A DNA stretch of 26,032 nt, taken from IMG/VR virus record IMGVR_UViG_3300007510_000060, positions 1-26,032 of that record. The stretch is one strand, 5' to 3'. Source of the stretch: a virus. The notes under the pieces were generated by a model. It did not search any database. It had not been told where the DNA came from and saw nothing but the letters and a program-made list of their open reading frames with translations. Positions 2,694 to 24,200 of this stretch are shown here, piece by piece. The position numbers and the translations under genes are program-made. The stretch's first letter is position 1. Every line of letters starts with the position of its first letter.

Positions 2694-5600
2694 ATGGGAA
2701 ACGTTGTAAGGACATCAAATGGTCATCAGACTTCATTGCAAGTTCGGCAAAATATACCCGAATTCGTAGTACAGGATCATCCTAAATTTGTAAACTTTAT
2801 TGAAAAGTATTATGAGTTTATGGCAAACAATTCCCTGATGGCAACAACATCAAATTCCAGTGTATATTATTATGGTGCCGATACAGCGGCAAAAATTTTG
2901 CAGGATATTAGGGATGTAGACAAGACGGATTTTGATAATTTTGTTGAGATGTTTCGTCGTCAGTATGCATATGCTTTTCCACAAGACCTTTATTCAGAAG
3001 CAAATAAAGCCACATTATATAAGAATCTTGTAAATTTTTATCAGGCAGTTGGCACAGAAGATTCTTTTAAGATGTTATTTCGTTTGCTCTATAACGAAGA
3101 TATAGAAATTTATTCTCCCAGTAAAGATATATTGATTGCAAGTGGCGGCGACTATGTAAAAAGGGCTAGAATACGAGTTAATTATGTTGATGGATTAAAT
3201 CGAATAGAGAATAAAAAAATTGTGGGTGCCAACTCTGGTGCGTATGGAACTGTTGAGAGAGTTGAAGTTATGCCGAAAGGCTCTGATACTTTTATAACAG
3301 GAAGGGTTGCAAATACAATAACAAATTTTTCGCCTAACCTCCTTTCTTTTTCTAATACCATTCCCAACCCCCTAACTTCAAAATATAATGAAGTAACTCA
3401 TCCCGAAAAAATATTAGAAAACACTAAAGAAGTTGCTCATGTATATTTGTCAAATTATTCGGGAACATTTGATATTCATGAGGATGTTTATTATTCAGAA
3501 GCAGGATCTGCAAATACGTCTGTCTGTGCAAACACAGTAATTCTTCCTGTTACAAAGAAATTGCTTTTGTTTGATGGATTTCAAGGGCCGGAAACTGCCA
3601 ACGCGGTTGTTTCTGTTTACGATTCCAGACATGCCTATCGGGCAAATAGCACCAATCCTCCTTGGGGTCATGCAAATGTTATTTTAGGACATGCCAATAC
3701 TCAGGAGTCGGGAAATTATATATTTTATTCAAATACAGGATTTTGGCACACTACTGGAGATGGTGAGGGGCAAATAAAATTAGTGACCAATAGTGTTTTT
3801 GGTTCCTTTGGAGGAAAGGCACTTCAAATAGGGAACAACAGTGTTGCGTCTGGTAATGGAGATTATCGTCAACTTGTATACTCTAACAGATATGGATATG
3901 GAGGCGAGAATCGTGTTTATCGACTGACTGTCCGAGCAAGAGACATAGGGGGGAATTCTGCCTTTTCTACGGTGGCAGGAAATCGTTTTTCCGCGGGCAT
4001 TGTAGCATACGATACCAGTGAAAGAATTATTGATAATGATCAATATACAAATCCGCTCACCCCAGATAGTTCAGGATCATATGAAAAGGCATTTTGGTTT
4101 GCCTCGGACAACCAATCTATTGATGACGAGTTTTATAACTATGTTGCATACTTCAAGGGCCGAGAAAAAGAAGCAAAGAAATCTGGAATTCCTTTTTCAG
4201 AATTAAATCGCGGAAATGGCGGAAGATTGAATCTTCCCAGCGGAACTAGACATTACAATTCTTTACAAAAGGCACTTGATGGTAAGGTCAAACTACCTCA
4301 TGGTACTTTGTGGTTTACTCCAACGATAAAGGTTAATCAGCCTGCAAACGGAGCAACTTTCTCACAGGGTATTACTCAAATTGATTATATTGCACTAGAT
4401 GAAATATCCTCTATGCAAAAACAAGAAGGAGCAAGACCCGGTGCATATCGAGAAGATAGCAGCCTTCTTTCGTCTTCATCTAGATTGTACGATGGAAAAT
4501 ATTGGCAATATAATGCATATGATATTCGTTCTAAGCAACAGGTAAAAGATTATAAGACTGTTGTTCGTGAGTCTGCACATCCGGCAGGTGTGGCAATGTT
4601 TGGTACGAAGATCACAGAGTCTTCAGCCAACGGGTCATATGAATCCGTAGAAAACAATTTAACAGACACCTTTACACCCGACCAACTAGACTCACTCGCT
4701 GCATGGTGGAGAGCCGATGCAATTGGTCCGCAGAATATTGAATATAGAAGATATGACGCCGCAACATCAAACGGAACATACGGCACAGAAAGAAATCGTT
4801 TCCCAGTTGGTTGGTCGGATTTTGAGGATTTGGATGAAGATTATGATATCAAAACTTTTGCTTCTGTTGATGTAGTTGCCAAAGGGACCGACGATTCATA
4901 TTTTGGTGGAAGGGCTTTGAAGATTATTGACGAGCACACTTCCACAGGACCAAATTTTGACTTTCCCACTACATTAGGATTAGGCACCTCGCCGTTCTTC
5001 GGTGGCGGCGAGATGGGAAATTATCCTGATGAAGAATTCCCAATTATCATTGAGCCTCATAAAAAGTGGTTACTGAGTTTTTATAGCAAAGTTAGTAATA
5101 CAACTATAGATAACGGGGATTTTAATTCTCTTCTTGTATACACTGCTTTTGCAAATAATGCCGGAGCAGATCATAGTGGCATTGGTTTGATCGGCAGTCA
5201 AGCTGTGGGAAATTCTTATCCAACACCCTCCTCTTCAACTGTATTTAAAGACTTCTCGGCAGAGAATGTCTGGGAAAGAAAATCAATGGTGTTTGATCTT
5301 TCATCAAGCCCACATACCAGAATCGGATTTAGATTTCAGTTACCGGACAGATCAAAATTTTCACAGGCAACTGGAAATACTACTTATCATTTTGACGGTT
5401 GGGTGTTGGAGGAATATGATTCGGCACTACACGGAACTGAATGGGGAAACCATACACCCTCGCCTTATATTGAAACTGGGATGAATGGTAGTAATGTTAT
5501 TTCTTGGTTTGATCAGAGCCCAAATAAGCATCATGTCTATGCAAACACGTATGGTGGAATTTTCTATGCCCCCCAATATATTGCCAATGCAGTCGGCGGA

Positions 5601-7085
5601 AAGCCTGCCGTTCGTTTCTCTGCAAATACTGCAAGAAACACGAGCAACGTATATGAATATAGCAGTATTGGAGGAACCGCAAAATCAGATGAATTAGAAT
5701 CGGGAGTAGCAACAAACTTCAAGCCGCCGACATCTGGCTTTCAGGCAAAGATGACATCAAATTCACTATATGAATGGCATGGTGGAACTCTTGCAAACCC
5801 TGCACTAGCTCGACCAGTCACAAATACTTGGACGATCATGGCAGTGGTCAGATCCAACATGGCAATCAATGCCACATCCTACAACGCAATCCCCGTTCCA
5901 ACGATCATTAATTCTGGTTATGCAAATAACCCATCTGGATCAATTGATCGAGTCGAAGGCGGAACCGCATTTGGAACTTTGAATCTTGGATACAACGCGC
6001 TTGGGGAAACAGGCTCACTTCAATCATATGTAGTAAATAGTCTACCCGGCGTTGCCTCTGTTAATACATCACACGTAGATACTTTTGGGTCATTGGCTTC
6101 TCCTGCAACAAATAATTCTTTTAGGATTGTTGGTGTTTCAGTTAATGCATCAACCCTCGGCACTTCTTCGGTAGATGATCTCTTGAACTTTCATATTGAT
6201 GGTAGGCGGTTTGCCAACTCTGAAATCAATAATGTCAACAATGTGACTCCTTATTCTGGAATGAGTTCTTTTGCCCAAAATAATTATGTAACATCAATTG
6301 GTAAGTGGAGAGCAGCGAACACAACGGCAAATCAGGTTAATTCCGTTACAAGTATCTATAGGCATGGAGTTAAAGATTGGGACGGAGATATTGCAGAAAT
6401 TCTTGTCTTTAACGATAAACTTGCCAATGTAAATATTGCAAAGGTCGAGGGATATCTTGCACACAAATATGGTCTTCAGGAAAACCTCAAACACAAGGAC
6501 GATGATGGAAATGGTGGACCAGAAGTAGAGAAGTATAGATGGGAATTTTCAAACACAACAAACGGTTGGGATTTTCGGAATGACGACGATCCAACTGACA
6601 AAGCCACGCTCGCATGGGTCTGGGAGCCGGGAGAAGCTAATGGTGCAATCCATATAATTGCTCCGGGTCGTCATTTTGGTATGCTCGCAGAAAAAAATAC
6701 TTCTGTTCAGTTTGATGGATCTGCATATGATAAGTTTGCAATTCGGCATATGACTAAAATCTATCCGACATGGTTTGGTCGTGGTAGATTGATCTACGAG
6801 AATTCAGAGGGAGATGTTGTGAGTCTTGAAAGTCATCAGCTTGGACCAACAGACATAACCGCTACAGATGTGTGGCATGAGCATTATATTGATCTATCTG
6901 GTCAATCGACATGGGTAGGAAAAAAAATAACCAAATTGAAGTATCTTTTTGATGAAGATTTTTCTGGATCTGGTCAACAATACTATGTGGATTGGATTTA
7001 TATTTCAGGAAACAATCACCCGCATCCATATAGACATAACGCTCCACCTGCAATTGGCGCAAATAGCTGGAATCTGAATTATTAA
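2694..7085 (+). CDS. gp7-like baseplate wedge protein fused to lectin/CBM-like modules
   Basis: A 1463-residue protein between gp6 and gp8, the place of gene 7 in T4. Residues ~20-230 include a helical region (PKFVNFIEKYYEFM, then YQAVGTEDSFKMLFRLLYNE and DIEIYSPSKDILIASGG). From memory this resembles the C-terminal third of T4 gp7 (KGIEASYKFLFKVLYNEEVEI). The rest is unlike T4 gp7. Residues ~287-570 look like a beta-sandwich binding module (GGKALQIGN, YRLTVRARD). Residues ~663-1261 are LamG/concanavalin-like (LAAWWRADA ... VISWFDQSPNKHHVYA ... GDIAEILVFND ... YLAHKYGL), apparently interrupted at ~680-930 by another sandwich (FGGRALKI, WLLSFYSK). Residues ~1283-1440 form a last sandwich (WEFSNTTNGWDF). 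GAGGA lies 13 bases before the ATG, a somewhat long spacing. The likely role is a wedge protein carrying surface binding domains. Confidence 0.7.
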   Translation: MGNVVRTSNGHQTSLQVRQNIPEFVVQDHPKFVNFIEKYYEFMANNSLMATTSNSSVYYYGADTAAKILQDIRDVDKTDFDNFVEMFRRQYAYAFPQDLYSEANKATLYKNLVNFYQAVGTEDSFKMLFRLLYNEDIEIYSPSKDILIASGGDYVKRARIRVNYVDGLNRIENKKIVGANSGAYGTVERVEVMPKGSDTFITGRVANTITNFSPNLLSFSNTIPNPLTSKYNEVTHPEKILENTKEVAHVYLSNYSGTFDIHEDVYYSEAGSANTSVCANTVILPVTKKLLLFDGFQGPETANAVVSVYDSRHAYRANSTNPPWGHANVILGHANTQESGNYIFYSNTGFWHTTGDGEGQIKLVTNSVFGSFGGKALQIGNNSVASGNGDYRQLVYSNRYGYGGENRVYRLTVRARDIGGNSAFSTVAGNRFSAGIVAYDTSERIIDNDQYTNPLTPDSSGSYEKAFWFASDNQSIDDEFYNYVAYFKGREKEAKKSGIPFSELNRGNGGRLNLPSGTRHYNSLQKALDGKVKLPHGTLWFTPTIKVNQPANGATFSQGITQIDYIALDEISSMQKQEGARPGAYREDSSLLSSSSRLYDGKYWQYNAYDIRSKQQVKDYKTVVRESAHPAGVAMFGTKITESSANGSYESVENNLTDTFTPDQLDSLAAWWRADAIGPQNIEYRRYDAATSNGTYGTERNRFPVGWSDFEDLDEDYDIKTFASVDVVAKGTDDSYFGGRALKIIDEHTSTGPNFDFPTTLGLGTSPFFGGGEMGNYPDEEFPIIIEPHKKWLLSFYSKVSNTTIDNGDFNSLLVYTAFANNAGADHSGIGLIGSQAVGNSYPTPSSSTVFKDFSAENVWERKSMVFDLSSSPHTRIGFRFQLPDRSKFSQATGNTTYHFDGWVLEEYDSALHGTEWGNHTPSPYIETGMNGSNVISWFDQSPNKHHVYANTYGGIFYAPQYIANAVGGKPAVRFSANTARNTSNVYEYSSIGGTAKSDELESGVATNFKPPTSGFQAKMTSNSLYEWHGGTLANPALARPVTNTWTIMAVVRSNMAINATSYNAIPVPTIINSGYANNPSGSIDRVEGGTAFGTLNLGYNALGETGSLQSYVVNSLPGVASVNTSHVDTFGSLASPATNNSFRIVGVSVNASTLGTSSVDDLLNFHIDGRRFANSEINNVNNVTPYSGMSSFAQNNYVTSIGKWRAANTTANQVNSVTSIYRHGVKDWDGDIAEILVFNDKLANVNIAKVEGYLAHKYGLQENLKHKDDDGNGGPEVEKYRWEFSNTTNGWDFRNDDDPTDKATLAWVWEPGEANGAIHIIAPGRHFGMLAEKNTSVQFDGSAYDKFAIRHMTKIYPTWFGRGRLIYENSEGDVVSLESHQLGPTDITATDVWHEHYIDLSGQSTWVGKKITKLKYLFDEDFSGSGQQYYVDWIYISGNNHPHPYRHNAPPAIGANSWNLNY

Positions 7086-8893: not shown

Positions 8894-11800
8894 ATGCCCA
8901 TCGACTTCAATCGCTTTCCATATTACGACGATTTTACAAAAGACAATCAGTTTTATCGTCTCCTGTTTCAGCCAGGAAGATCCGTTCAGGCCAGAGAGTT
9001 AACCCAAATTCAAACCCTCCTTCAGAGTCAGATTGATAATTTGGGAAAGCACTTGTTTGACGAAGGTGCTCGCGTTCATGGTGGAACTTTAAATTATAAA
9101 AGAGACGCGGAAAAGTGGATAGCAGTTAAGGCACAAGATGCCCATGGCAATCCGGTTCGCATTAGAGATATAACACCAGGTTTGTTAATTAGAAAACCAA
9201 AGAATGCTGACGACGTAAATGCAGTACACGGAAAAATTACTTCGATTATTCCCTCAGAGGCAGAAGACCCCAATACAATATATTTTCAGTGGGTGATTGA
9301 GCCGGACAACCCAAATGTGGATGGGTTTTTGCCAAATGAGATGCTTCAGATTTGTGACCCGACAAGCGGAGCAGTTCGCTATAATGTAACTACACTAGAT
9401 GTTAATTCTGTAGGAGCTTCGATTCATTATGGAACTTCGGCTTCTATTTCGGTAGAGCCAGGACTGTATTTTTATAATGGTCTTTTTGTTCAATCTGTCG
9501 GCGGAAGCGTCAGGCTTTCCAAGTATACCAATGCGACAACTTATCGGGTTGGGTATGCCGTACATGAAGAAATTGTTACAGATGATCCAAGAAGTCTTGA
9601 TCCGGCACAGCAAGCATCGAATTATTCTGCTCCGGGTGCCGATAGATATAAAATCCATTTAACGCTTATTAAGGTAGGTGATGGGCTCGTAATAGACGAC
9701 AGATCAGTTCCTAATTTTATTGAGGTTTGCAGAATTATTGACGGAAATCTTATTGCTGCAAATGATGGGACAAATGATCTATATAATATTCTTTCTGAGC
9801 AGATGGCAAGAAGGACTTATGAAGAAAGCGGAAATTATGTGGCGAAGCCCTATGATTTAGTTTTGTCGGACAAGACTAGCGTAGACAATCCTGAAGTTCA
9901 AGCAAGGATGGCAGAAGGCGTTGCGTATGTTCGTGGATTTCGACACAGCTTAAATCAAAAAAGTGTTTTTACTTTTGATAAGGCGCGAGAGGCTATACGG
10001 GAAGAAGGAAATTTATCAAATTGGTATGGCGACAACTTTTTATATATTTACGATCATGCAAATACTAATGTAACGCATCCCGAAAATGCAAATGGAGTAT
10101 TTACTGTCGGCTCTGGTGCCGGAGAAGATGTTTCTACTGCTCCTTATGCGTTAAGAGGCGAGGCAGTCGAGATTCATTGTGTCCCTCAAGAGTTGGTTAA
10201 GAACCACTCACTCGCTTCAAATGACACTTGGCATTCAACTTTGGTAGGTACTGCACGGCCCATTCAACAAGTTTATAATAGAGATAAATCACTTGTTTCA
10301 AGCGCACACGGCCGAACAGGCGATGTTTATAATTTGTGGATGGGGGATTTTAAGAGTTCTCCAATTTCAAACACATTGTCTGTTACTAATATTATTGAAA
10401 ATGTTTCTGCGTTAGCAAATACGAACTATATTACATACAAATTTGCAGCGGATTCAACACATGGTATTACCGCAAATGATAGAATTTCGGTGACGGGCTC
10501 GACTGATTCATATTGGAACTTGGATTTTGCAAAGGTTAGCGGAACAAATACAACAGCAATATGGATTGCTGGAGGAGATGCTTCCGACCCTTCTCATAGT
10601 ACACGTTCTTTAACCGTGTATAGAAACACAGGAAATACAGATCCACTAAAAAGTGTTGTTCTGGATCAGGATTCATCTGCTGCATGGAACGGGTCTTATG
10701 TTGGAGCAACAATTCAAGTAGGAAACTCGGCTCCGAGAAAAATTGTAGACTACATCGGAACGCATTCTACTGCCGAAACTCTTTATCAACAAAGGTATGG
10801 ATTTTCAAAGAGAGGCATGGCAATTCTAGACAAGCCCCTAGATGAAGTGCCAAGGTCTGGGGATAAGTATAGGCTTGGTTTAACAATGAAGCAGGCAAGG
10901 TCTGTTGTATTTAATCAAAATAAATCTGCGACTGGCGTTAATCAATTCCCGGCAATATTAAATCAGTCTTGGAATGTTGATCCAATCAGTGGCGTCCAAA
11001 GAGGTTCTCTTGAGAAGCTAGTTGACGATGTTTATGGCAAGAGAATTGATGGTGATGCCAGATATAATGTATTCGGCGACAGCTCCGCGGGCGAGGATGC
11101 TTTACTCTTTGAGCCAAACAGGGCTGCTGTTAAGACATACGAAACATATGGCGCGCTTGACTCTGGGTTATCCAGCAACACAAATGTAGTCTACACAGAA
11201 TATGTTCTGAAAGAGAGAACAGGAACTGATGATTCCGTGGAAACCTTTGAAACTCCCAGTGCGCCAGCCTATAAATTTTATAATAGACCAAAGCCTTGGC
11301 CCTTTGATGCGAGCTTCAATAGTGATGATCATGGTCTTGATCATGTTAAAGATAATTTCATTTTAATCAATCGTACAAAGGGCACGATCCTGACAAATGA
11401 AATTACAAAACTTGTGGTTGATCCAACTAATCATAGTATTGAAATAACATCTGATACCAATTTCATACAGAATGACTTTTACTTGTTGCTATTTCCCGTA
11501 AGAGCAGAGTATGTTACTGCTGCATATAAGAAATTAATTAAAGCAAACACCACACATTCAATTGCTTCGGGAATTGCTCGTAATCGTGAGACAAGTCTGT
11601 CTGATTTTGATAACGGGCATGTGTTCTTTGCCAATGCAACGTATGATACCGGACCCGGCGCAAGGCTGTCTTTAATGAAGCCGGATGGGTTTAAATTACA
11701 TGCAGTTATTCAGAATCTTCCAAATGCAGATGCAAATAATCAAATCGCAAACACGTTTGACCAAAGTCTAGAAACGCCCTTTTATCACATCACAGATCAT

Positions 11801-14800
11801 TTTGCTTTCAATACTGGTCAGCGTGACATGTTCTATGATAACGCATACATTGAACTAAAGAACGGTTACAATGCGCCAACCGGAAACGTTCTGGTGATTT
11901 TTGATCGTTTTGAAAGAATGGATAAGCCCAAGAGTGATGATACAAGAGTTAAGGATATAAGTAGCCCAAGTTTCTTTAGTGTTGATTCATACCAATGGAC
12001 GACTGACTTAACACTGGATCATGTTCCTGGTCAAGCAGCAATTCAAATTGGAACAAAGGTAATATCTAATACAAATGTCGTTGGGTATGCAGTTGACTAT
12101 GCCAATACAGGCACAGGCGGAGCATATTCTAAGGTTAGGTTGCAAAGTGTTACTGGTCCGCCTGGCTCAAATGGCGAATTCCAAGTCGGCGAATATATTA
12201 GTTGGTTTGATGCAGCATCAAGTGCCACCTTACAGGCTAAAATTAAGACAGTTGTTGCTGCCGATTTGAGTTATAGTGAAATTCCTACCTACAGAAGCGC
12301 AAGTCAGAAAGGTTATCCGCTCAGAAACGTGCTGGATTTCCGACCTTATGCTGTGACGAATAACATGGTGAGTGATACGTTGGCTGATGCATCGATGCCT
12401 CCAATTCCGACTCAAAAGGGAATTCTTGCAGGTAGGTGGGACGGTAGCACAATATTGCCAATGACCGAAAAATTATCTACTCCAACTGTATATGATCATT
12501 TTGCGGGGAGAATTGATAAAATTGTTGTGACCAAAGACGGAAACTACACTAACATCAAGGGAAATCCTGCTGTTGTCCCGTTCCCACCAAAGGATGCTCC
12601 AAGCGATGATTCATTAACTCTATTCCAAATTAATATTCCTCCATATACGTTTAGCCCCAGAGATATTGAAATTAAGCCTACGTTTGCCATGAGGCACACG
12701 ATGAAAGATATTGGTAGGTTGGCAAAGCGTGTAGAAAACCTTGAATATTACGTTGCATTGAATGCTTTGGAAAAGTCAGCATCCGATATGGATATTCGGT
12801 TTAAGTCAGATGGAACATCAAGATTTAAGAATGGAATTGTTGTTGATAACTTTATGGGCAGCATGGTTATGGATTTCCATGAGTCAACTGCTGCTGTGGG
12901 AACAGGAGTCTTAAAGCCGCAGGTTGAGCAGCACGATAATAACAATAGTGCAGGAAGTTATCATTTCCAACCAGAAACTTCTTTTTTGGGATTAAAACAC
13001 CATTATCGAGATTATACAGTAGATGGTGGCTCTGTTGGTCCTTCACATGGAATAATAACGACACTAGATTATACTATTGAGCCAATGATCACTCAGGCAA
13101 GTGCAACAACAACAGAAAGCGTCAATCCATTTGATCTTCAAAATTTTACAGGAGATTTGAAATTAACTCCAGATAAAGATACGTGGTTTGATATAACCAA
13201 GGTTCCTGAATATAATTCTTTTGTCAATAACACACTTGACAGCATTGCTGGTGTGGATGAAAATTCACCACTACCAAGGATTATGAATGCAATTAGATCC
13301 ATAGACGAGTTCTGGGTGGATATTGCAGGTAATAAGCCAATCGGAGATGATCCCGCATTGCATGGAACTAGCTTTTATCGTGCGGACCTATCTTCTCCGG
13401 GGAGTGATTTTTCTAGGGATATTTCTCTTGGAAATGTTCGTGATCAATATTTTAATACAACGTCCATTGATGCTGCAATTTCGCAACATGGTATGATGGA
13501 TGGGGTCGCAAAGAATATTAAAATTTTGCCATATATTCGATCCCGTGATGTTATTGTCAATGCCAAAGGTCTAAAGCCCAACCATCTTAATACTTTATTT
13601 TTTGATGGAACAAGTGTTGAGAATTATTTTGCCCAGGCAAATCGAATTTATATGAATTATGATCCCCAAAAGATTCGCATTCAGAATTCTGATTTAACAG
13701 GAAAGCTATTCCAGCCGGATATTGATGGTACATATGAAAAGATTAAGCTGTCTAATGGTGGCAAAACTGCAAATGCAATCCTTCTTGCTGTCAGAGAAGC
13801 AGAGCTTCAAAACAAAATTACAAATGGACCAAATTCAAGATTCATGGTGGGCTATATTGTTCCAGAATTTGATCCAGATACCGGACTGATTGACTATGAA
13901 GCCTTTGGTGATGGTTATTATACTGGTTGGAATGATTCAGAAATTAGATCATGGGGTTTCCAGGGGTCGTCTGCTACAATAACTGGATATAGTTCTGAAG
14001 CCACGGCTACTCTTATTGCGCGAGGCGGATCTTCAACACTTGAGGCACAGGAGTATAATGGTCATTATACGGGCACTGCAAGAAATACTACCTCAAACAC
14101 AACACATATTGTGCTATCGCCAGATGCACATCGGTATAGAGCCGGAAACTTTAGGAAGGCAGCAGCAGGATCTGTTTCTACTTATGATGAAGCTATTCCT
14201 GAAAAATCTGTAATTAATATTGTTGGAGGGGCAGGGGCTGGTCAGCAATGTGTTGCGAATGGTCTTATATATTTTGATTCAAGTGGAAGACCAGTTATTG
14301 AACTAAGATCGACGGCATCTGGTGAGACTGGCATTAGCCCTAATAATCCAATTGATGGCTCAAGTGTTTATACGATCGGAATGCGCCATGTTAATCCTAT
14401 AAACAGCAGATATAATGGAATTGCCAAGCTTGGCGATACGCCCTCCCGCTCAAATCATTATGGAGAAAAGATGGGTATTCTTCGTATTCCATCAACGTCT
14501 AAGGTTAAGTTTACCACCGGAAGAAAACTTGTAGAGGTTGCAGACAGGTTTGGAAGACAGGAGTGGTTAATTACGAGCTATGCGTCTGCAAATTATTCGG
14601 CTGATGGTAAAGAGCTTGAACAGGTAGAAGCTTCGCCCGAAAGGCTAGAACTGTTACAAGAAATCAGAAGCCGATCAAATATGTATAGGGTTCTTGATCA
14701 CCCAGACGATACGGGTATAATTCCTGCTACAAACAATGACGACGGAAGTTCTGGTATCTTGGCAGTAGTAACTGGCCTTGAAGTTGCAAATGGAATGTGG

Positions 14801-14968
14801 ACGGCAGAAGCTACTCACGGCATTGAATTTGTTTCGGGCGGCGGTGAATATGGAGAAGTTGATTATGCTGAACAAGAATACTTATCAGGAGTTCTAATGG
14901 ACGTGTGGAAGAGGCTAAGGGACGATTATCCTGAGATTTATAATAGATATTATTCTAAGTTTGGATAA
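8894..14968 (+). CDS. Giant DUF4815-type virion structural protein, N-terminal part of a split protein
   Basis: A 2024-residue protein. The N-terminus (MPIDFNRFPYYDDF, then LLFQPGRSVQARELTQIQTL and VHGG) is the signature of the DUF4815 structural proteins of T4-like cyanophages. Near residues 1270-1300 is a short coiled coil, LAKRVENLEYYVALNALE, also typical. Near 1545-1575 is LPYIRSRDVIV ... GLKPNHLNTLFFDG. Near 1861-1890 is GILRIPSTSKVKFTTGRKL. In relatives, as recalled, the chain then goes on into a DPIAQTF... region. Here it ends after an acidic, aromatic tail (DDYPEIYNRYYSKFG), and that region is found in the next gene. The likely role is a peripheral baseplate or fibre-network protein, by position in place of T4 gp9-gp12, although no sequence likeness to those is seen. 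The start ATG has AAAAGGGA upstream. Confidence 0.75.
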   Translation: MPIDFNRFPYYDDFTKDNQFYRLLFQPGRSVQARELTQIQTLLQSQIDNLGKHLFDEGARVHGGTLNYKRDAEKWIAVKAQDAHGNPVRIRDITPGLLIRKPKNADDVNAVHGKITSIIPSEAEDPNTIYFQWVIEPDNPNVDGFLPNEMLQICDPTSGAVRYNVTTLDVNSVGASIHYGTSASISVEPGLYFYNGLFVQSVGGSVRLSKYTNATTYRVGYAVHEEIVTDDPRSLDPAQQASNYSAPGADRYKIHLTLIKVGDGLVIDDRSVPNFIEVCRIIDGNLIAANDGTNDLYNILSEQMARRTYEESGNYVAKPYDLVLSDKTSVDNPEVQARMAEGVAYVRGFRHSLNQKSVFTFDKAREAIREEGNLSNWYGDNFLYIYDHANTNVTHPENANGVFTVGSGAGEDVSTAPYALRGEAVEIHCVPQELVKNHSLASNDTWHSTLVGTARPIQQVYNRDKSLVSSAHGRTGDVYNLWMGDFKSSPISNTLSVTNIIENVSALANTNYITYKFAADSTHGITANDRISVTGSTDSYWNLDFAKVSGTNTTAIWIAGGDASDPSHSTRSLTVYRNTGNTDPLKSVVLDQDSSAAWNGSYVGATIQVGNSAPRKIVDYIGTHSTAETLYQQRYGFSKRGMAILDKPLDEVPRSGDKYRLGLTMKQARSVVFNQNKSATGVNQFPAILNQSWNVDPISGVQRGSLEKLVDDVYGKRIDGDARYNVFGDSSAGEDALLFEPNRAAVKTYETYGALDSGLSSNTNVVYTEYVLKERTGTDDSVETFETPSAPAYKFYNRPKPWPFDASFNSDDHGLDHVKDNFILINRTKGTILTNEITKLVVDPTNHSIEITSDTNFIQNDFYLLLFPVRAEYVTAAYKKLIKANTTHSIASGIARNRETSLSDFDNGHVFFANATYDTGPGARLSLMKPDGFKLHAVIQNLPNADANNQIANTFDQSLETPFYHITDHFAFNTGQRDMFYDNAYIELKNGYNAPTGNVLVIFDRFERMDKPKSDDTRVKDISSPSFFSVDSYQWTTDLTLDHVPGQAAIQIGTKVISNTNVVGYAVDYANTGTGGAYSKVRLQSVTGPPGSNGEFQVGEYISWFDAASSATLQAKIKTVVAADLSYSEIPTYRSASQKGYPLRNVLDFRPYAVTNNMVSDTLADASMPPIPTQKGILAGRWDGSTILPMTEKLSTPTVYDHFAGRIDKIVVTKDGNYTNIKGNPAVVPFPPKDAPSDDSLTLFQINIPPYTFSPRDIEIKPTFAMRHTMKDIGRLAKRVENLEYYVALNALEKSASDMDIRFKSDGTSRFKNGIVVDNFMGSMVMDFHESTAAVGTGVLKPQVEQHDNNNSAGSYHFQPETSFLGLKHHYRDYTVDGGSVGPSHGIITTLDYTIEPMITQASATTTESVNPFDLQNFTGDLKLTPDKDTWFDITKVPEYNSFVNNTLDSIAGVDENSPLPRIMNAIRSIDEFWVDIAGNKPIGDDPALHGTSFYRADLSSPGSDFSRDISLGNVRDQYFNTTSIDAAISQHGMMDGVAKNIKILPYIRSRDVIVNAKGLKPNHLNTLFFDGTSVENYFAQANRIYMNYDPQKIRIQNSDLTGKLFQPDIDGTYEKIKLSNGGKTANAILLAVREAELQNKITNGPNSRFMVGYIVPEFDPDTGLIDYEAFGDGYYTGWNDSEIRSWGFQGSSATITGYSSEATATLIARGGSSTLEAQEYNGHYTGTARNTTSNTTHIVLSPDAHRYRAGNFRKAAAGSVSTYDEAIPEKSVINIVGGAGAGQQCVANGLIYFDSSGRPVIELRSTASGETGISPNNPIDGSSVYTIGMRHVNPINSRYNGIAKLGDTPSRSNHYGEKMGILRIPSTSKVKFTTGRKLVEVADRFGRQEWLITSYASANYSADGKELEQVEASPERLELLQEIRSRSNMYRVLDHPDDTGIIPATNNDDGSSGILAVVTGLEVANGMWTAEATHGIEFVSGGGEYGEVDYAEQEYLSGVLMDVWKRLRDDYPEIYNRYYSKFG

Positions 14969-14984
14969 TAGGAATAGGATAGGC

Positions 14985-14990
14985 AGGAGA
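14985..14990 (+). promoter_or_regulatory. Ribosome-binding site separating the two DUF4815-type genes
   Basis: AGGAGA lies 9 bases before the ATG at 15000, inside a 31-base gap after the TAA of the 2024-residue gene. It shows that the second half is translated from its own start, rather than being the product of a sequencing frameshift. Confidence 0.65.
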
Positions 14991-14999
14991 ATATAAATT

Positions 15000-17987
15000 A
15001 TGCCGATGCACACCGCAGATACTAGATTAAGTCACTTAGATTGCCTTCAAAAGTTGGGCTGGCTTTCTTTTGACGTTACACATATGGGAGAACCTGACGG
15101 TTATTTGCTATCTCCATGTTGTGAACATGGCTATCGTGCTGTATGGAGTCCGCGACCAAAGATGGAATGGACCCGCGCGTTTACACAAATAGGCGGGCAA
15201 GTCGTTCGACAAGGTTTTAATGATTTTACACCCGGAGCCCAATATTTGGAGCCGGGTCTTGGAGGTTCTGGTAGTGTTCTAGAAAGTGTCTGGAACTGGA
15301 GTGATGCTTATGGCGGCGATCAGGCAAATTTCTTTAACGTTGAACAAGCCATGGGTAGGGAAGGTAGCTGGGTTCTTGTTGCAGGGGCTCGTCAAGATGG
15401 GGATGGTCCTCCAATTGATGCAGAAGCAAAGTGGTGGACGACTACACAAAACGATGCCGATTCTCTTGAAGAAGAGCTTTCCTGGTGGGGCGGACCTCAC
15501 CTGGGTTATGCTGCTTTTGGAGGGGGTGTGAATCCGGCTTCACATTTGTACGGTGGGCAAGGTCCAGGTGACTATGGCTCGTGGGGCCACCACCTCGGTC
15601 TTAAGCACCACGAGCTGTCGAACATATACGATACCGTAACACATCCGGCACATCAAGGCTTGAGAAGATGGGTTAAAAATGAAGATCCTGTTACTGGCTC
15701 TGAGAGTGGTCTGGGCATTGAAGATCCCGGTCTTGGGCAAGCGAGCGGTCTTCCTAATTTAGATGCAGGATTCGCAACAGATACAATTTGGTGGATTAAG
15801 TATGGTAACAGATCATTTTTGGGGGTCAATAAGTGTAATGATCCTTTAGGAGCAAATCAAGAACGGGATGATCATGATATACATGGCTCGGGTTCAAATT
15901 GGAGGGGCATAGGGCTTCCTGATATCAACGTAAATGATATCATTTCTGCACAGGCATCTGCTCGCGGCGGATACACTCCGCATATTGTATTTTATGGCGG
16001 AGATGTGCGGGGAGCAAAGGGAACTGCAATTGTTGACGATAGTGGTAATATTACTGGTATTAATATAACAGATCCGGGTGCAACGGTCATTACAGATGCA
16101 CAGCAGGATAGTATCGAGGCACCCTTAACTGCTGTGTCCATGCCAAATCATTATACGGGATTTGATGCGAAAGCAAAAATATCTACAAACCCCGCTGAGA
16201 TTAAATCCGTACTTCCAGATTTGTTTAAAAGTAAATATGAACTTCTTTCAGAGTGTTCTGGTGGATACAATGATCCAATTGCACAGACTTTTATGGTAAG
16301 TGCCAGACGGTATCCAGATGGAATTTTTGTTCCGAGTATTGATATTTGTTTTGCGTCTCGACCAAGATTTGGTATATATGATCCAGTATATCTAGAGTTA
16401 AGACCAACTCTTAATGGTTTTCCTTCGGCTGATAAAATTATTGCGTCCAAAGTGCTTTATCCACACTCCGTGAATGTTAGCCCCGGAGTTGATTATGACG
16501 AAATGCCATTTCCTCCTTGGGAAAATCCAATTCATCATAGTCTCGGGGGCTCTAGAGAACGTAGAGCAGATTATCCTGCTTTTGATAATGCATTTGGGTA
16601 CACAAGGTTTGTTTTTAGATATCCAATTTATTTAGAAGCTGGTCAGGAATATGCGATTATAGTCCGTTCAAATAATACAGATTACAAGTGTTGGATTTCT
16701 GACACCCGTGGCGACCAAGTAGTCAAGGGACAAAGCCTTTCTGATTATGACAGCGATGGTTATAGTAAGGTGACTGCTGTTCATAAAAAACAATATGGCG
16801 GTTCATTTTTTAGGTCGCAAAATGGAAGAACATGGACGCCGGATCAATGGCAAGACTTGATGTTTCGGGTTAATAAGTGTAATTTTGGAGGAACAAGAGC
16901 TTCAGCCGAAACCGGAACAGGTGTCTATCGAGCTGGGCTTTTTACTACATCAGACTTTCTTTATGATAAAATGAATTTAAATTTTCATTCTGTTCTTATG
17001 CCGGGTAGTGATACTTCACTTGAAGGAGTATTGAAGACACAGAAAGAATCTGACTCCGAAGGGACATTAACAGAAGTTACAGGTCTTTCTGGAAAACTTG
17101 CTGATAAGTCTTTCTCCGAAGGCACAACACAAGCACTTTCAGAAAGAATGAAAATCCACCAAAACAAAGGCCCCCATAATGCTTCAATTAAGTTGGACTT
17201 AACCTTTGGTACGGAAAATCCAGATGTTACTCCAATTGTCGATACCCGAAATATGTCAGTTCTTTTACATAAAAATATAATTGGGGCTGGTGATCTTACT
17301 GCATCTGATATTATTATTAATACTCCCGGTCAAAACTATTCTGATGCAGATGTTTTTAAAGTGACGGGTGGCGGTAGCGTACAGGATGCGGAATTTACAA
17401 TTCCAAACAACGGGACCGACGCTGCTGGTAGAATTCTAAAAATTGAGATGACTTCTCCGGGGAGAGGTTTTCATAAGAGCACAGACCCAAATGATCCTAT
17501 TGTTATTACACAAACATCCACTCCTACCGGGTCAGGTGGAACATTCTATGTTCTAAGCGAAGAGGGTCAGAGTGGAGGAAACGGTAAAGCAAGATACGTC
17601 ACTAAAACAGTAAACCTTGCTCCGGGTATGTCTGCCCGAGCAATTAAGGTATTCTTGACTGCAAGGCAGCCGTATCAAAGTGATATTCACGTTTATTATA
17701 AAGCCCTTGCCGAAGAAGATGATGAATCAATTTCTCAGAAGAGATGGAAGTTGATGGATAGGACAAGCCCAGATGAAGATAAGTTCTTTGAAATGGCATC
17801 TTCATTCAATAGTAGTGGCGGATTCCATGAATATGAATTTGATACCGATGAGCTTATAGAATATACTAGAACCGATGGAAAAACTTTTGATAGCTTTAAA
17901 TCCTTTGCCATCAAGATTGTAATGTCTGCACAGAACCCAGCCAAGACTCCAGAGATTAAAGATTTCCGAGCTATTGCTGTATTCTAA
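15000..17987 (+). CDS. DUF4815-type structural protein, C-terminal part, with an unfamiliar N-terminal domain
   Basis: A 995-residue protein. From residue ~425 on it reads like the C-terminal third of cyanophage DUF4815-type proteins: DPIAQTFMV, VYLELRPTLNGFPSADKI, YLEAGQEYAIIVRSN, then GGSFFRSQNGRTWTPDQWQD-LMFRV near 600-620, MNLNFHS, RNMSVLLHKNIIG, and a last domain (~870-995) ending FKSFAIKIVMS ... EIKDFRAIAVF. Residues 1-330 are unfamiliar: rich in Trp, Gly and His (SPCCEHGY, WGHHLGLKHHEL, DDHDIHGSGSNW) with several Cys near the start. Segments such as GNITGINITDPGATV (about 350) and GRILKIEMTSPGRGF (about 820) are the G.I..I.ITDPG.. linker type common in phage baseplate proteins. It is probably a partner of the preceding gene product in the virion. 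Confidence 0.7.
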   Translation: MPMHTADTRLSHLDCLQKLGWLSFDVTHMGEPDGYLLSPCCEHGYRAVWSPRPKMEWTRAFTQIGGQVVRQGFNDFTPGAQYLEPGLGGSGSVLESVWNWSDAYGGDQANFFNVEQAMGREGSWVLVAGARQDGDGPPIDAEAKWWTTTQNDADSLEEELSWWGGPHLGYAAFGGGVNPASHLYGGQGPGDYGSWGHHLGLKHHELSNIYDTVTHPAHQGLRRWVKNEDPVTGSESGLGIEDPGLGQASGLPNLDAGFATDTIWWIKYGNRSFLGVNKCNDPLGANQERDDHDIHGSGSNWRGIGLPDINVNDIISAQASARGGYTPHIVFYGGDVRGAKGTAIVDDSGNITGINITDPGATVITDAQQDSIEAPLTAVSMPNHYTGFDAKAKISTNPAEIKSVLPDLFKSKYELLSECSGGYNDPIAQTFMVSARRYPDGIFVPSIDICFASRPRFGIYDPVYLELRPTLNGFPSADKIIASKVLYPHSVNVSPGVDYDEMPFPPWENPIHHSLGGSRERRADYPAFDNAFGYTRFVFRYPIYLEAGQEYAIIVRSNNTDYKCWISDTRGDQVVKGQSLSDYDSDGYSKVTAVHKKQYGGSFFRSQNGRTWTPDQWQDLMFRVNKCNFGGTRASAETGTGVYRAGLFTTSDFLYDKMNLNFHSVLMPGSDTSLEGVLKTQKESDSEGTLTEVTGLSGKLADKSFSEGTTQALSERMKIHQNKGPHNASIKLDLTFGTENPDVTPIVDTRNMSVLLHKNIIGAGDLTASDIIINTPGQNYSDADVFKVTGGGSVQDAEFTIPNNGTDAAGRILKIEMTSPGRGFHKSTDPNDPIVITQTSTPTGSGGTFYVLSEEGQSGGNGKARYVTKTVNLAPGMSARAIKVFLTARQPYQSDIHVYYKALAEEDDESISQKRWKLMDRTSPDEDKFFEMASSFNSSGGFHEYEFDTDELIEYTRTDGKTFDSFKSFAIKIVMSAQNPAKTPEIKDFRAIAVF

Positions 17988-17990
17988 TCT

Positions 17991-18224
17991 ATGGACAAAC
18001 AATTGGTCAAAACAGACAATCCTGATTTTATGAAAGACGAAGAGACAGGGGCATTGGTTTCTTCTGACCTTATTGCATTTCGTAAATTTAAAGCTGAACA
18101 AGATCGCGCAGAACAATTAAAAAATCAGAAAAACGACCTAAATAATATTAAGTCTGAAGTGTCCGATCTCAGAAACGAGATGGGAGAGATAAAGGATTTA
18201 TTGAAACAGCTTTTGAATAAATAG
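17991..18224 (+). CDS. Small coiled-coil protein between the baseplate and fibre genes
   Basis: A 77-residue, charged protein. From about residue 30 to the end it is a heptad-like helix (FRKFKAEQDRAEQL ... NNIKSEVSDLRNEMGEIKDL-LKQLL) that should form a coiled coil. The first 27 residues (KTDNPDFMKDEETGALVSS) look like a short extended leader. The start ATG lies 3 bases after the upstream stop with no clear ribosome-binding site, so it is probably translated by coupling. Its TAG overlaps the AGGA that serves the next gene. Small coiled-coil genes of this form follow the DUF4815-type gene in other marine T4-like phages, as recalled, but no function is known to me. A trimerising connector or an assembly helper is possible. 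Confidence 0.7.
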   Translation: MDKQLVKTDNPDFMKDEETGALVSSDLIAFRKFKAEQDRAEQLKNQKNDLNNIKSEVSDLRNEMGEIKDLLKQLLNK

Positions 18225-18237
18225 GACGTTTTGATTA

Positions 18238-21200
18238 ATGCCCAAGTTTAAGTCTTCCATAAAAGTAGGCGCGCTCGAAAGTCTTACTGGCAATACCACG
18301 CTGTTGCATCTAGGTACAGATAATCGTGTGGGTATAGGAACAACCAAGCCGGAAACCAAATTGCATGTTGATGGTGCAATTACTGCGACTGGTTTGGTTC
18401 TTCCTCCTGCTGTGCTTTCAGACCAAGGAGACTCTGCTACTGCATTTGGATTTAATCCAAACTTCACTGAATGGAATGGTGCAGTAGCAAATGGATACAT
18501 TCAAACAGGCGACGGAATAGTTCAGGAATCTTCTGATTCTAATTTGGGTGGAGCATCTGCTCGCTTTAATGACGCAGAAGCAATATGGACAAGGCAAGTT
18601 GAATTTGCTTCTCCTTTGTATGCTAATGTATTCTTTCAGGGGACGATGACCTATAAGTATGAGAGGCACTCTGACGGAGAGCCCGGTCTTGCGATTACAT
18701 TAACACACAGAGCAAAGGGTGACACCAGTGGAAGCACTGATGATACCACCTTCATCGTTCCCACATACGACACAAACCGAGCCCCAGCCTCTGGCTGGCA
18801 GACTGTTCCTTGGAGAGCGTACACGCCCCCAAACAGAGAAATAACACATTTACAAATACAAGTTGTTTCTACTGAGGGCGATGTTAGTGGAACCAATGAT
18901 GGTGGAGGCGGAACCGCAACTACGCTTGGTGGTGGAATTGATTATGATTGGTATATAGATGGATTTAGCTTTGCATTTATGCATCCTGATATGCGTCTTG
19001 ATCAGCTAGGTAGGATTACAGGTGCGTATATTGCTTTTGCTGCAATTGATGATGCTCATATTAAGAATTATATCGCATCTACGAGTTCAAGAATTTATGA
19101 TAACCCTTCCGGTCAACCAACTGCATTGCCAGAGGGTCATCCTAATTATCCAGAATTTGGTACAGATGGAACTGGGTTTCTTAGTGATGCCTTGGTCGCA
19201 AACAGCAGCTATGCTGCTGGCTGGAGTATTGATAAGTCAGGAAGTATCAAGGCAACTAATATCAATATCTATGGTAGTGACGGGCAAATTCTTATTCGCG
19301 GAAGCGGAGTCGATACTGACGGAAGAAATAATCCTTTCTTCGATTGGGTCAATAGCCCAACACCACCAAGACTTTCTGATCTAGACCCCGGAGCATCAAC
19401 ATATCTTTATGGGCTTGCTTTTGAGGAGAGCAACAAATCCGATCTCAGAGCCAATGTAGGATATTTGGCAGAGAGTGGTCTTTCTTCTGAAACGATTAGT
19501 GTAAATGCACATTCAACGTATTTTGCCAATGTTGTGACTGGACCAACGGGCGGTTTGGGTAGCAATCTTGCCAATGGTGTGATTACATTTAATGGAATTT
19601 CAACAAATGCTCCTCCGGGCTCTATTGTAACAGGTGAAAATAAAAATGTCATTAAAAACCAAGATGGATATATTCTATTCCTTGCAAACACTGAAAAATG
19701 GGATACCAATATTGGGGCCAAACAAAAATATCATGCAAACACTTTGCTTGGTGAGTATGGTCTTTATGTTTTAGGTACTCCTACGGTTGGCGGGTGGCTT
19801 TATCATCCTCACGGAAATAATACATGGTACACAATTGATTCCACACAATCGGGGGATCGTCTACATGAAAATGATTTCTTGGTTGTTGGTCGTATTGCAA
19901 CAGATGGTGAAGGTAAGATTCGTAAAGATAAAACTTTTGTTCAGCCACCCAGGCACCCGGATTCAATTACCTCTCCAGAAGCGCAGGGTTCTTATCCTCC
20001 AATTGGAATTACTGCTGGCGGTATTCTTTTTGCAGACATTCATATAAACCAATGGAACCATACAGCAAATGCCGGTGAAGTTCAATTTACGAACCAGAGA
20101 AATCTTCCTAATACACGATTTACATTCATTCATCCGGGCACAGATGATCCGTCAGATAGCGTTCGATATACAGTCAATGGTGCCTATGGTGTTCTTACAA
20201 GCCTTGAAGATTTTCCTGGCAGTCGATATATTACCTTTATTGGCGGAAATAAAAATAGAGCAATGCCCGGAGGTGGGTCTGGGTTTTCTTTGGATACGGG
20301 TCATTCTCCTGACTTTATTGCAGCCTTTCCTCTTGGTGATAAGTGGTATTATAATCAAGATGAAGGAGAATTTGCAGAGTTTATTCCTGATTCCAAAGAC
20401 TGTATTGTTGCCCGAGTAGATGCAAATGGTTCTGTTGGTCAATTGACCAATCTATATCGTTATGCGGACAGAGAGGCTGTAACTGCGGAGGGTGCAACGC
20501 TTTCAGATATGATCATTGATCCCCCGCTCGGAATTGATGCGGGCGGACTGGTCTTTGCAGACCTAACGATAAATAGAGAATTTGTAACAGACGATGTGTT
20601 CAAACAAAATTCTGGATTTATTGCTATCACAAATTCAGAAAATGTTCCTAATCAAAATGAATTCTATGTAATTCATCCCAATAATGGAAACAACTTCTTC
20701 ACTGCGAATGTTGGAAGGGGTGTTGCAACAAGTCTGAATCCAGATAATGATGTATATGGCACAAGGCATATTGCGTTTGTTGGTGGAGACAACAGAACCT
20801 TGCCTGGATATGTTCCGCGATTTCCTGAAATTTTATCTCATTATAATGTAGCAAATGATTTTATTGCGGTTTCAAAATATGACGATCAAGGAAACCCAAG
20901 ATTTGATGGCAAGTGGTATTATGATCCGGGTACAGGCATCTCTGAATCTCACACATTCACGCCGATTGCAAACGACTTTATTATTGCTACAATCAATTCA
21001 TTCAACCCGGATACTGTGGGTATTGACCAAATTAATAGATGGGCAGCAAAAGAAGGCACACTGATTATTAACGGGGTCGAAACAACCATCACCAGTCTCC
21101 GTGATTTATTAAACAATAGAATTGATACCACAAATAATTATGTGACTACTGCGATTGATCTTGCTCAGAATGCATATTCAAATGCAGTTGTGGCACAAGC

Positions 21201-24200
21201 CAATGCCGCACAGGCATTAGGTCTTCTAGATGGCGGAATCACTATCTATGTTGGTGAGGAAGGCGATGAGGCAGAAGGTGTCCCCGGATCTGTATTAGGT
21301 AATACAATATACAATTCGGCATTTGATTATAATGATCTTTGGATTAATACACATCCCGATAATGAATTTGTCGATGGTTCTTGGTCAACGAATGCAATTT
21401 TTAGATATTCAAATTCGTTGGGCGGTTGGGCACATAGCACAGAGACAGAAGTGTCTTCTGGAAAACAAAGAGGTCTTGGTTGGAGACACGATCGAACCAA
21501 TCCTCAAGGTCGTGCCTATTTGAAATCTTTGGAGTCGAGAGGATTTGCTGACCGAGCAACCGTCATCTATTATAGAGATCAAGCGGTTGCGGGTTATGGT
21601 CCAAACGTGGCAGTTATTTCTACAGATCCTAGTGATGTTGGATTGTTGAATTTTAATCCAGAAGGCGATCTTTGGTACGACACAAAAGATAATGATAATC
21701 ATCCTTATGTTTATAGAACAAATTCGTGGTTTAGTAAGAGCAATACCACACATCATGGATATGCAAATGGTATTGCAACAAAGGGTGAATGGGCACAGAC
21801 AGTTCATGGTCAGGTCGGCGGATTTGTTTATACGACATCTCCAACGGGATGGTACGATACTCGGGATAAAACATTCACCGAAGCGACTGACCAAACAGCA
21901 AGAGATTTTGCTCAAAATGCACTTGCCCTTGCAGCTAATTCTCAAAGCGCAGCCGATCGGGAAATACTTGCATTCTTTTCACCATACACAGGAACTGTTC
22001 CTGAAGCAACGGGTAATGGTGATGTTTGGATTCATACGGATAATGCTATCGTTGAAGCCACGGGAGCAAAGAATACTGCCTCTATTCATGTTGCCAACAA
22101 CCATACAGTTGGAGGAACCTGGGACGGTGTTGATCATCGTTGGTACTCTTCTCCTAACAATGCCATTGGTCGAATGTACCTTGACAGTTACTCGGCAGGC
22201 GTAAGGGGTGACTTTGATCGTGGTGGTTCAAATTATATGCCTCGCGGTTACTCTACGTTTGATGAACCCGCACATCTTTATAACTTTATTGATACGATGG
22301 GCTATGATAATTCAGAATCAACAGCAAGGAACGCTGCCAGAGGGGTTGCTCAGGGGTCAAAAGACCCATATCCAATTTATACGGAATCCCACACCAGCGG
22401 CACAGATATGTATCTCGAATTCGATCAGGATCGTTCTGCTCCCTCTGGCGGTCAGTATAGTCTAAAGGTAAATACAGGAACAACTACTACTGGTCCTTCA
22501 ATTCGCTATGGTGTATTTGCGAACACTGTCGTATTAGATACAACAAATCTTTATGATAAGTTTGGTATTGATATTCCAACTGGAAAGAAATGGATTCTCT
22601 CTTGGTATCAGAAATCCAACACTGCCCTTTTGGATGCAATGACCCAAACCGGATCTGATGGAACCGGGCTGTCGTTTGATTTATATTTGGCAAATTCTAC
22701 AAGCTACATGGGTTATACTACGAAGGGATATAACCTGCTCAATGCCGGAACTACGATGGACATTCAAACAAAGGATGTCTGGCAAAGAAACTATATTATA
22801 TTTGATTTTACTTCGGGAACCGCAACGGGTTCCGATTACAGTGATACAGGCTCTCCAATAGGGCATGGCAACTTAAACACAATCAACCGAGTGATTCCAT
22901 ATTTTAATGTTAATGCAAATACTTCAGCAGGCGCAGTAACATATTGGCTCGATTCGGTTCAGTTAGAAATGGTTCCGAATACTGTATTTACCCCATCTTC
23001 ATTCAAGGAGCCCTCAGATAAGAATGCGATTGTCTTTGGTCGTGAGATTTCTGATGGTAAGGTTGTTACTCATTATTATAATACAAGCGAAACCGGATAT
23101 ACACATGGGCCCCAAGCAAACGTAACACCATCCGGTTATCCTAATCCAGAACCACATGGGGATTTCCTTGTTGATACCAGTAACAACAATATTATGTATC
23201 GGTATTATCAAAAACATCCAAGTGCCAGAACATTTGACGCATTAGAGTCTACCTTTGCTCAGACACTAAACTATTCGCCACCAACGGATTCTGATGGGGA
23301 TGGTTGGTATATTATTGCAGATGAAAGAACTGCCAACGCACTCTCTACTTCCCATGACGCTCTTGCAAATGCAGCAACAGCACAGGCTGCTGCGGATCGA
23401 GAGATACTTGCCTTCTTCCAGGCAAGCGAACCAACAGCATCGGGTAACGGCGACATCTGGATTGATACTGATAAGTATGCTACTCTTAATACAAGCGCAA
23501 TTAATATTTGGAATGCAGGATATAATTCGGGAGTGGGTCAATGGGAGGTATCGACAAATAGCGCAATCGGTCTTGTATATCTTAATGCCTATCTTGCTGA
23601 TCGAAAGGCATCCCGAGCAGAATCGCTCGCGTTTAACATTACTGGAGCCTCAAACAATTTCCCAATTTATCCAGATGCAAACGGCATTTATGTTGGCGCA
23701 ACGGGTAATGTCGCATTCTATCGCAACAGTAAGACAGAGTATCTTCAGGATCAACCACTGTCTGGTGATAACAAAGGCGCAGTATATGCTTCAAGTCGAG
23801 GGTCGGATTTAGTTGGACCCAACGGAAAGATATGGTATCCTTATAGTTCAGGTTTTGGTGTCCCAGAAGTTGGGCATGTTTCGACATCATACTACTCTCC
23901 CGCACCCGCCTCGCCCGGGGATCGGACAGTAACAAACTCAACATTTTCTTCTGTATATCTCATGTATACCAATATGAATGCATCCACACGATTTTCTATT
24001 GGCGGTGAGACTTTTGGTGAGCATGATCACTTTATTCCTGTCGTGTGGGATAAACAGTTATATAATGGCGGTGGGTCTTGGAGGGCGCAGACGAAGAGTG
24101 GAACATTCTTTGATTTTGCTCCCGATCCTGCAAATGGCGACTTTATTGTTGCGCAGCTCCATAGACCTGAAACAAATCCAGAAGGTATTGCTGATATAGA

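Follow-up and report, generated by a model that had tools for sequence, protein, structure and literature searches.

The window, by which we mean the whole stretch of DNA analysed, is a 26,032-base virus contig (IMG/VR record IMGVR_UViG_3300007510_000060) from an uncultured T4-like phage. It holds a baseplate operon of the T4 type, and the place of the gene for the baseplate protein VrlC, after gp8 and before a small protein of the family phrog_473, is taken by two adjacent genes, called A and B here. The conserved blocks in the following list are those of five profile HMMs, namely nterm, mid, FxTG, cterm (the DPxAQ block) and cend.

393-782: gp25, T4-type baseplate operon
783-2675: gp6, baseplate operon
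2694-7085: wedge protein at the gp7 position, 1463 aa
7124-8860: gp8, directly ahead of A in the operon
8894..14968, plus strand: gene A, 2024 aa, assigned to the N-terminal, anchoring part of VrlC (phrog_358), with the whole DUF4815 domain inside
8894..9898, plus strand: module nterm, the conserved first ~335 aa of A (HMM survey)
12479..13222, plus strand: module mid, the second conserved block (HMM survey)
14444..14638, plus strand: module FxTG, FTTG here and FRTG in relatives, last module of A
14639..14965, plus strand: lineage-specific tail of A, ~109 aa, ending in predicted helices (low confidence)
14966..14968, plus strand: stop codon TAA of gene A
14985..14989, plus strand: AGGAG, Shine-Dalgarno-like, 10 nt ahead of B's ATG at 15000
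15000..17987, plus strand: gene B, 995 aa, assigned to the C-terminal part of VrlC
15000..15179, plus strand: first 60 aa of B, its most conserved part and a candidate docking element
15000..16271, plus strand: N-terminal 424 aa of B, a new region that single-chain relatives lack
16272..16895, plus strand: module cterm, DPIAQTF...FRSQN...WTPDQ, predicted lectin-like fold
17568..17984, plus strand: module cend, the last C-terminal beta domain, matching the end of phi812 ORF65
17991-18224: phrog_473 protein, 77 aa, after B, short and coiled-coil-like

The arrangement at the break is just as the sequence-only reading described it, with two open reading frames of 2024 and 995 residues, a stop, a gap of 31 nt (14969-14999) and a good ribosome-binding site. 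A sigma-70-type promoter or terminator-like site was looked for between A and B and none was found, so a single transcript is likely. The operon order, gp25-gp6-gp7-like-gp8-VrlC-phrog_473, is the one seen around the single VrlC gene of Pelagibacter phage HTVC008M, and the small protein downstream of that gene is homologous to the phrog_473 protein of the window. Whether VrlC is split or not, the phrog_473 protein adjoins its C-terminal module (as in L012) and, by analogy with A511 gp107, mentioned in PMC9863714, is a possible chaperone or partner.

Two other long genes of the window have features of their own. The wedge protein at 2694-7085 has a Pfam Baseplate_wedge match near its N-terminus only, and the PHROG wedge families cover approximately its first 200 aa; most of the long sequence beyond is unrecognised, and a LamG/concanavalin-like stretch is visible there by eye (LAAWWRADA...GYLAHKYG). 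Downstream of the phrog_473 gene, an open reading frame of more than 2598 aa (18238-26031) continues past the end of the window, has no Pfam match and is repetitive, with two copies of a 300-nt block, 765 nt apart (70%), three of a 114-nt block and two of an 83-nt block (89%). It looks like a modular tail fibre that has grown by repetition, and the contigs L004, L006 and L019 have open reading frames of more than 3240 aa at the equivalent position.

A and B are recognisable as parts of one protein. Both match phrog_358 (3e-176 and 5e-79, respectively) and the single VrlC chain of HTVC008M (AGE60391, 2001 aa) is hit by both, in collinear order; the FTTG end of A aligns on the FRTG of single-chain proteins and the DPIAQTF of B on their DPLAQTF, which bears out the claim that the two regions belong to one chain in relatives. 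All five modules are present and collinear, nterm, mid and FxTG in A and cterm and cend in B, and they thus sit on adjacent separate genes in the manner of a two-gene VrlC.1/VrlC.2 arrangement. The description of the locus as a DUF4815-type protein split in two, however, needs some refinement: the full-length VrlC chain is divided, but the DUF4815 domain itself is whole. Pfam DUF4815 (PF16075) matches A only (171 bits, E 3.4e-50, cut-off 30), the last matched stretch ending at residue 1436; as the domain lies wholly within A, the cut must be downstream of it, and a division of the domain in two is ruled out. A DUF4815 match above the cut-off was also seen in the genome of Synechococcus elongatus, where it suggests a resident prophage or tail-like particle.

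The closest known systems share the modules and differ in the number of chains. The VrlC proteins of HTVC008M and the cyanomyophages (phrog_358) have the same module order and the same operon position as A and B but are single chains of 2001-2820 aa. In phi812 ORF65 (PDB 9EUF), A matches the N-terminal part and the B core the C-terminal part, whereas Listeria phage A511 gp106, Staphylococcus phage phi812 ORF65, phage K ORF65 and SPO1 gp16.2 are each one chain of ~1150 aa. We consider it likely that A and B together are a VrlC of the A511 gp106/phi812 ORF65 type, belonging to a double-layered baseplate and made as two chains after a fission in the linker between FxTG and DP[IL]AQ.

The sequence-only reading took the split for a stable fission rather than an error and proposed looking for it in related contigs. 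The same cut was indeed found in two further lineages of IMG/VR, at ~48-62% protein identity and with different gap lengths: L004-L006 have 2008 + 986 aa and a 29-nt gap, and L018/L019 have 2017 + 1053 aa and a 37-nt gap. B starts MPMHT[AS]DTRL behind an AGGAG in the window and in both of these lineages. Metagenomic contigs can carry errors, and one phage genome discussed below, that of KFM-TASP06, looks like such a case; a break present in contigs from several samples and three divergent lineages is another matter, and an assembly or sequencing error, or the decay of a broken gene, would not add a ribosome-binding site, a conserved start and ~530 aa of conserved new sequence. We find this explanation hardly conceivable. 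It is also very improbable that a programmed frameshift or readthrough fuses A and B during translation, so that the virion still holds some fused chain: the genes lie close together in one operon and nothing like a terminator or promoter was seen between them, but B is preceded by its own ribosome-binding site and its start is highly conserved, inspection by eye showed no slippery site, and the A-to-B frame offset differs among the three lineages (+1, +2, +1), which argues against a programmed frameshift. Likewise, no frameshift that would restore a single frame was found, both A and B being open over their full length.

Each half had been said to have gained sequence at the break, and the comparison agrees: the spacing from FxTG to DPxAQ is ~36 aa in HTVC008M and ~10 aa in phage K, whereas the window has 109 aa in A, a stop and another 424 aa in B. 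Among the three lineages, identity is 54-62% in the A core and 51-59% in the A tail, 75-82% in residues 1-60 of B and 48-58% in the B core, and the nucleotide changes are commonest at third codon positions, the A tail and the N-terminus of B included. With the protein identity of the new tails close to that of the cores and an excess of third-position changes, the new sequence is under selection as protein. Within the first 60 residues of B, C15, C40, C41, H4, H12, H28 and H43 are unchanged in all three lineages. The N-terminus of B has no match in Pfam or, by sequence, in PDB; its first 324 aa have none in cultured phages (tblastn, E up to 1), and a comparison with the inserts of other VrlC proteins gave no convincing homology among all open reading frames of the loci compared. 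A search of genome contigs with B found no relative, so no host is indicated.

A shows variation away from the break as well. An insert of ~260 aa just ahead of FxTG (13664-14443) is common to L004-L007, L018/L019 and L021 and missing from most of the single-chain relatives aligned. L021 (3253-9267) is a member of the window clade at 49% identity that keeps the A tail; its contig ends before the stop.

To place the cut among its relatives, an IMG/VR search with the alignment of A gave 52 loci, cultured phages were added, and the modules were surveyed with the profile HMMs. VrlC is one chain in most cultured phages and in many contigs, and it is so in the cultured Kyanoviridae, Ackermannviridae, Pootjesviridae and Herelleviridae sampled. 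The 15 named single-chain phages (HTVC008M, S-SZBM1, S-MbCM7, S-RSM4, ACG-2014f, Melnitz, CBA120, Menlow, Kuja, Ea2809, phiM19, OLIVR5, SPO1, phage K and LP-048) support what the sequence-only reading said of the cyanophage relatives. The recurrence of splitting, on the other hand, had escaped that reading, as had the intactness of the DUF4815 domain. A cut between FxTG and DPxAQ is found in the window clade and in L048-L050, and a cut ahead of DPxAQ, with FxTG undetected, in L059/L066 and L062. The chain is cut between mid and FxTG in L026, L028-L032, L035, L036, L060, L061 and the cultured Caulobacter phage Cr30, and it is spread over three genes in L039/L043, L053 and L054-L056/L069, the first cut of L053 lying inside the mid-profile region, where relatives carry an insertion. 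Several of the layouts recur in contigs from different samples. With few exceptions the start codon of a downstream gene lies 9-48 nt past the stop, and many of these genes have an AGGAG-, AAGGA- or AAAAAGG-like site. Most breaks fall in two inter-module linkers, a concentration that is only suggestive, as the module blocks were chosen by us and the events are few. The linker between FxTG and DPxAQ would tolerate a cut because the modules on its two sides fold independently.

Two known phages also have a split VrlC. Cr30 carries VrlC in two genes of 1201 + 787 aa (AGS81093 + AGS81092), cut one joint earlier than in the window, between mid and FxTG. Wolbachia phage WO has a multi-gene VrlC, with adjacent genes and the lectin-like module on a gene of its own, but it is very distant (branch 2.2), its modules are short, and it has no long new N-terminus. 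The names VrlC.1 and VrlC.2 were published for it (PMC3235987), so splitting is already known there; the passages that name them do not discuss the function of the split. Only the later of the breaks in WO agrees with the published pair; the nterm|mid break comes from an unverified record, in which the two open reading frames overlap by 43 nt, and may be an error. In one more phage genome, the partial one of Klebsiella phage KFM-TASP06 (L073, 5980-11035), there are two abutting open reading frames with a break between cterm and cend, and the annotation of VrlC consists of short hypothetical genes, some of which are placed on the wrong strand. We do not count it as a true split; a sequencing frameshift combined with mis-annotation is the probable explanation.

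A tree of 49 representatives (683 columns, IQ-TREE) requires 7 changes between the single and split states, at least 6 of them forced by well-supported branches, and the separate trees of the N-terminal and C-terminal modules (the three longest rows left out) require 6 each. VrlC has been cut into two or three genes independently on about seven occasions, and nearly every cut lies at one of two joints. One clade (100/100) unites the window with L004 and L018, and L059 and L062, both on long branches, join it (97/89); the Cr30 split is an independent event. That the halves might ordinarily be separate genes in relatives is a concern the sequence-only reading had raised itself. Separate halves do occur within the window clade and about six further lineages; these are nested among single-chain phages, however, and fission stays the cheaper account.

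The opposite polarity, with a two- or three-gene state ancestral and the single chains produced by later fusions, draws on the split layout of the deep-branching WO phage and on the scatter of split layouts over the tree; we think it unlikely. From a single-chain ancestor, 7 fissions are enough, while fusions alone would have to number 15. Not all lineages are cut at the same place (mid|FxTG, FxTG|DPxAQ or both), which fits separate cuts and not one old boundary. The sampled Herelleviridae, Ackermannviridae and Kyanoviridae are all single-chain, and split lineages have single-chain sisters nearby, L045 for L048 (99/95) and L033 for the eight-member mid|FxTG clade (L026-L061; 100/100), nested in single-chain clades. 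When a fission and a fusion cost the same, a single-chain root saves one step (7 vs 8); if a fission costs twice as much as a fusion, a split root becomes marginally cheaper (10 vs 11). The single chain is the cheaper ancestral state, and the polarity of the root depends on the cost weights.

What the cut separates can be read from the structure models and the published work on homologues. The predicted model of the first domain of the B core (B 424-627) resembles the lectin-like domain of Cwp84 (Z 11.0, 126 aligned, rmsd 2.8 Å), and that of the B core matches phi812 ORF65 to its C-terminus (Z 16-17; 360 residues at 3.7 Å, 9euf_0). The fold of the B core is thus predicted to be of the lectin type, and sugar binding is suggested by this resemblance of fold. 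Trimers of A511 gp106 form the pyramids of the double-layered baseplate (PMC9863714) and, once the receptor is bound, turn to the cell wall (PMC9863714, PMC11406892); the homologues in Deep-Blue and Vp4 go under the name 'Tail fiber/VrlC' and have two carbohydrate-binding modules near the C-terminus (PMC11406892), and a survey of pelagiphages counts VrlC as integral to the two-layered baseplate (PMC7029224). From the lectin-type fold of B and the published role of gp106, the cut would part the wedge-anchored modules from the lectin-type end.

A working model would then run as follows. A and B would be made from one late operon; A would attach to the wedge and tail-fibre network, and the carbohydrate-binding end, which turns to the cell surface when the phage adsorbs, would belong to B. 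The A tail and the N-terminus of B, above all its residues 1-60, would form a non-covalent joint in place of the covalent linker. This joint is a guess from sequence conservation and the weakest step of the model, as neither region could be usably modelled (pLDDT mostly <45 in the AlphaFold model of the 424-aa N-terminus of B; pLDDT 52.7 and no credible PDB match for the C-terminal model of A) and no relative of either was found outside the clade.

Alternatively, the fission could have come with a real change of function, in which B, instead of being fixed to A, is a separate host-recognition subunit, present in a different copy number or exchangeable between phages: it has gained a 424-aa N-terminus that starts with its most conserved segment, the cut divides the anchor from the lectin-like end, and recurrent cuts at these joints suggest some advantage. 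A and B, however, have the same relative identities and the same branching, (window,(L004,L018)), with L006 closest to L019 in A and B alike, and no swap of B is visible within the window clade. With no sign of exchange between phages there, we regard this explanation as quite doubtful. For the fission of VrlC in general, we tentatively suggest that each cut may free the host-facing lectin end as a subunit of its own, docking through the gained termini, with a copy number or placement that could vary independently of the baseplate.

We found no account in the open-access literature of recurrent splitting at the same two joints, of three-gene forms or of long conserved new termini. For annotation, the finding is a warning that a 'hypothetical' gene following a DUF4815 gene can encode the C-terminal half that the latter lacks. 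For the phages themselves, it means that a large baseplate protein can be cut at two joints, apparently without loss of function, and that evolution has made use of both, about seven times in all. The cut joints mark the border between the wedge-anchored and the host-facing part of VrlC, and the split lineages provide natural two-chain systems in which that joint can be studied.
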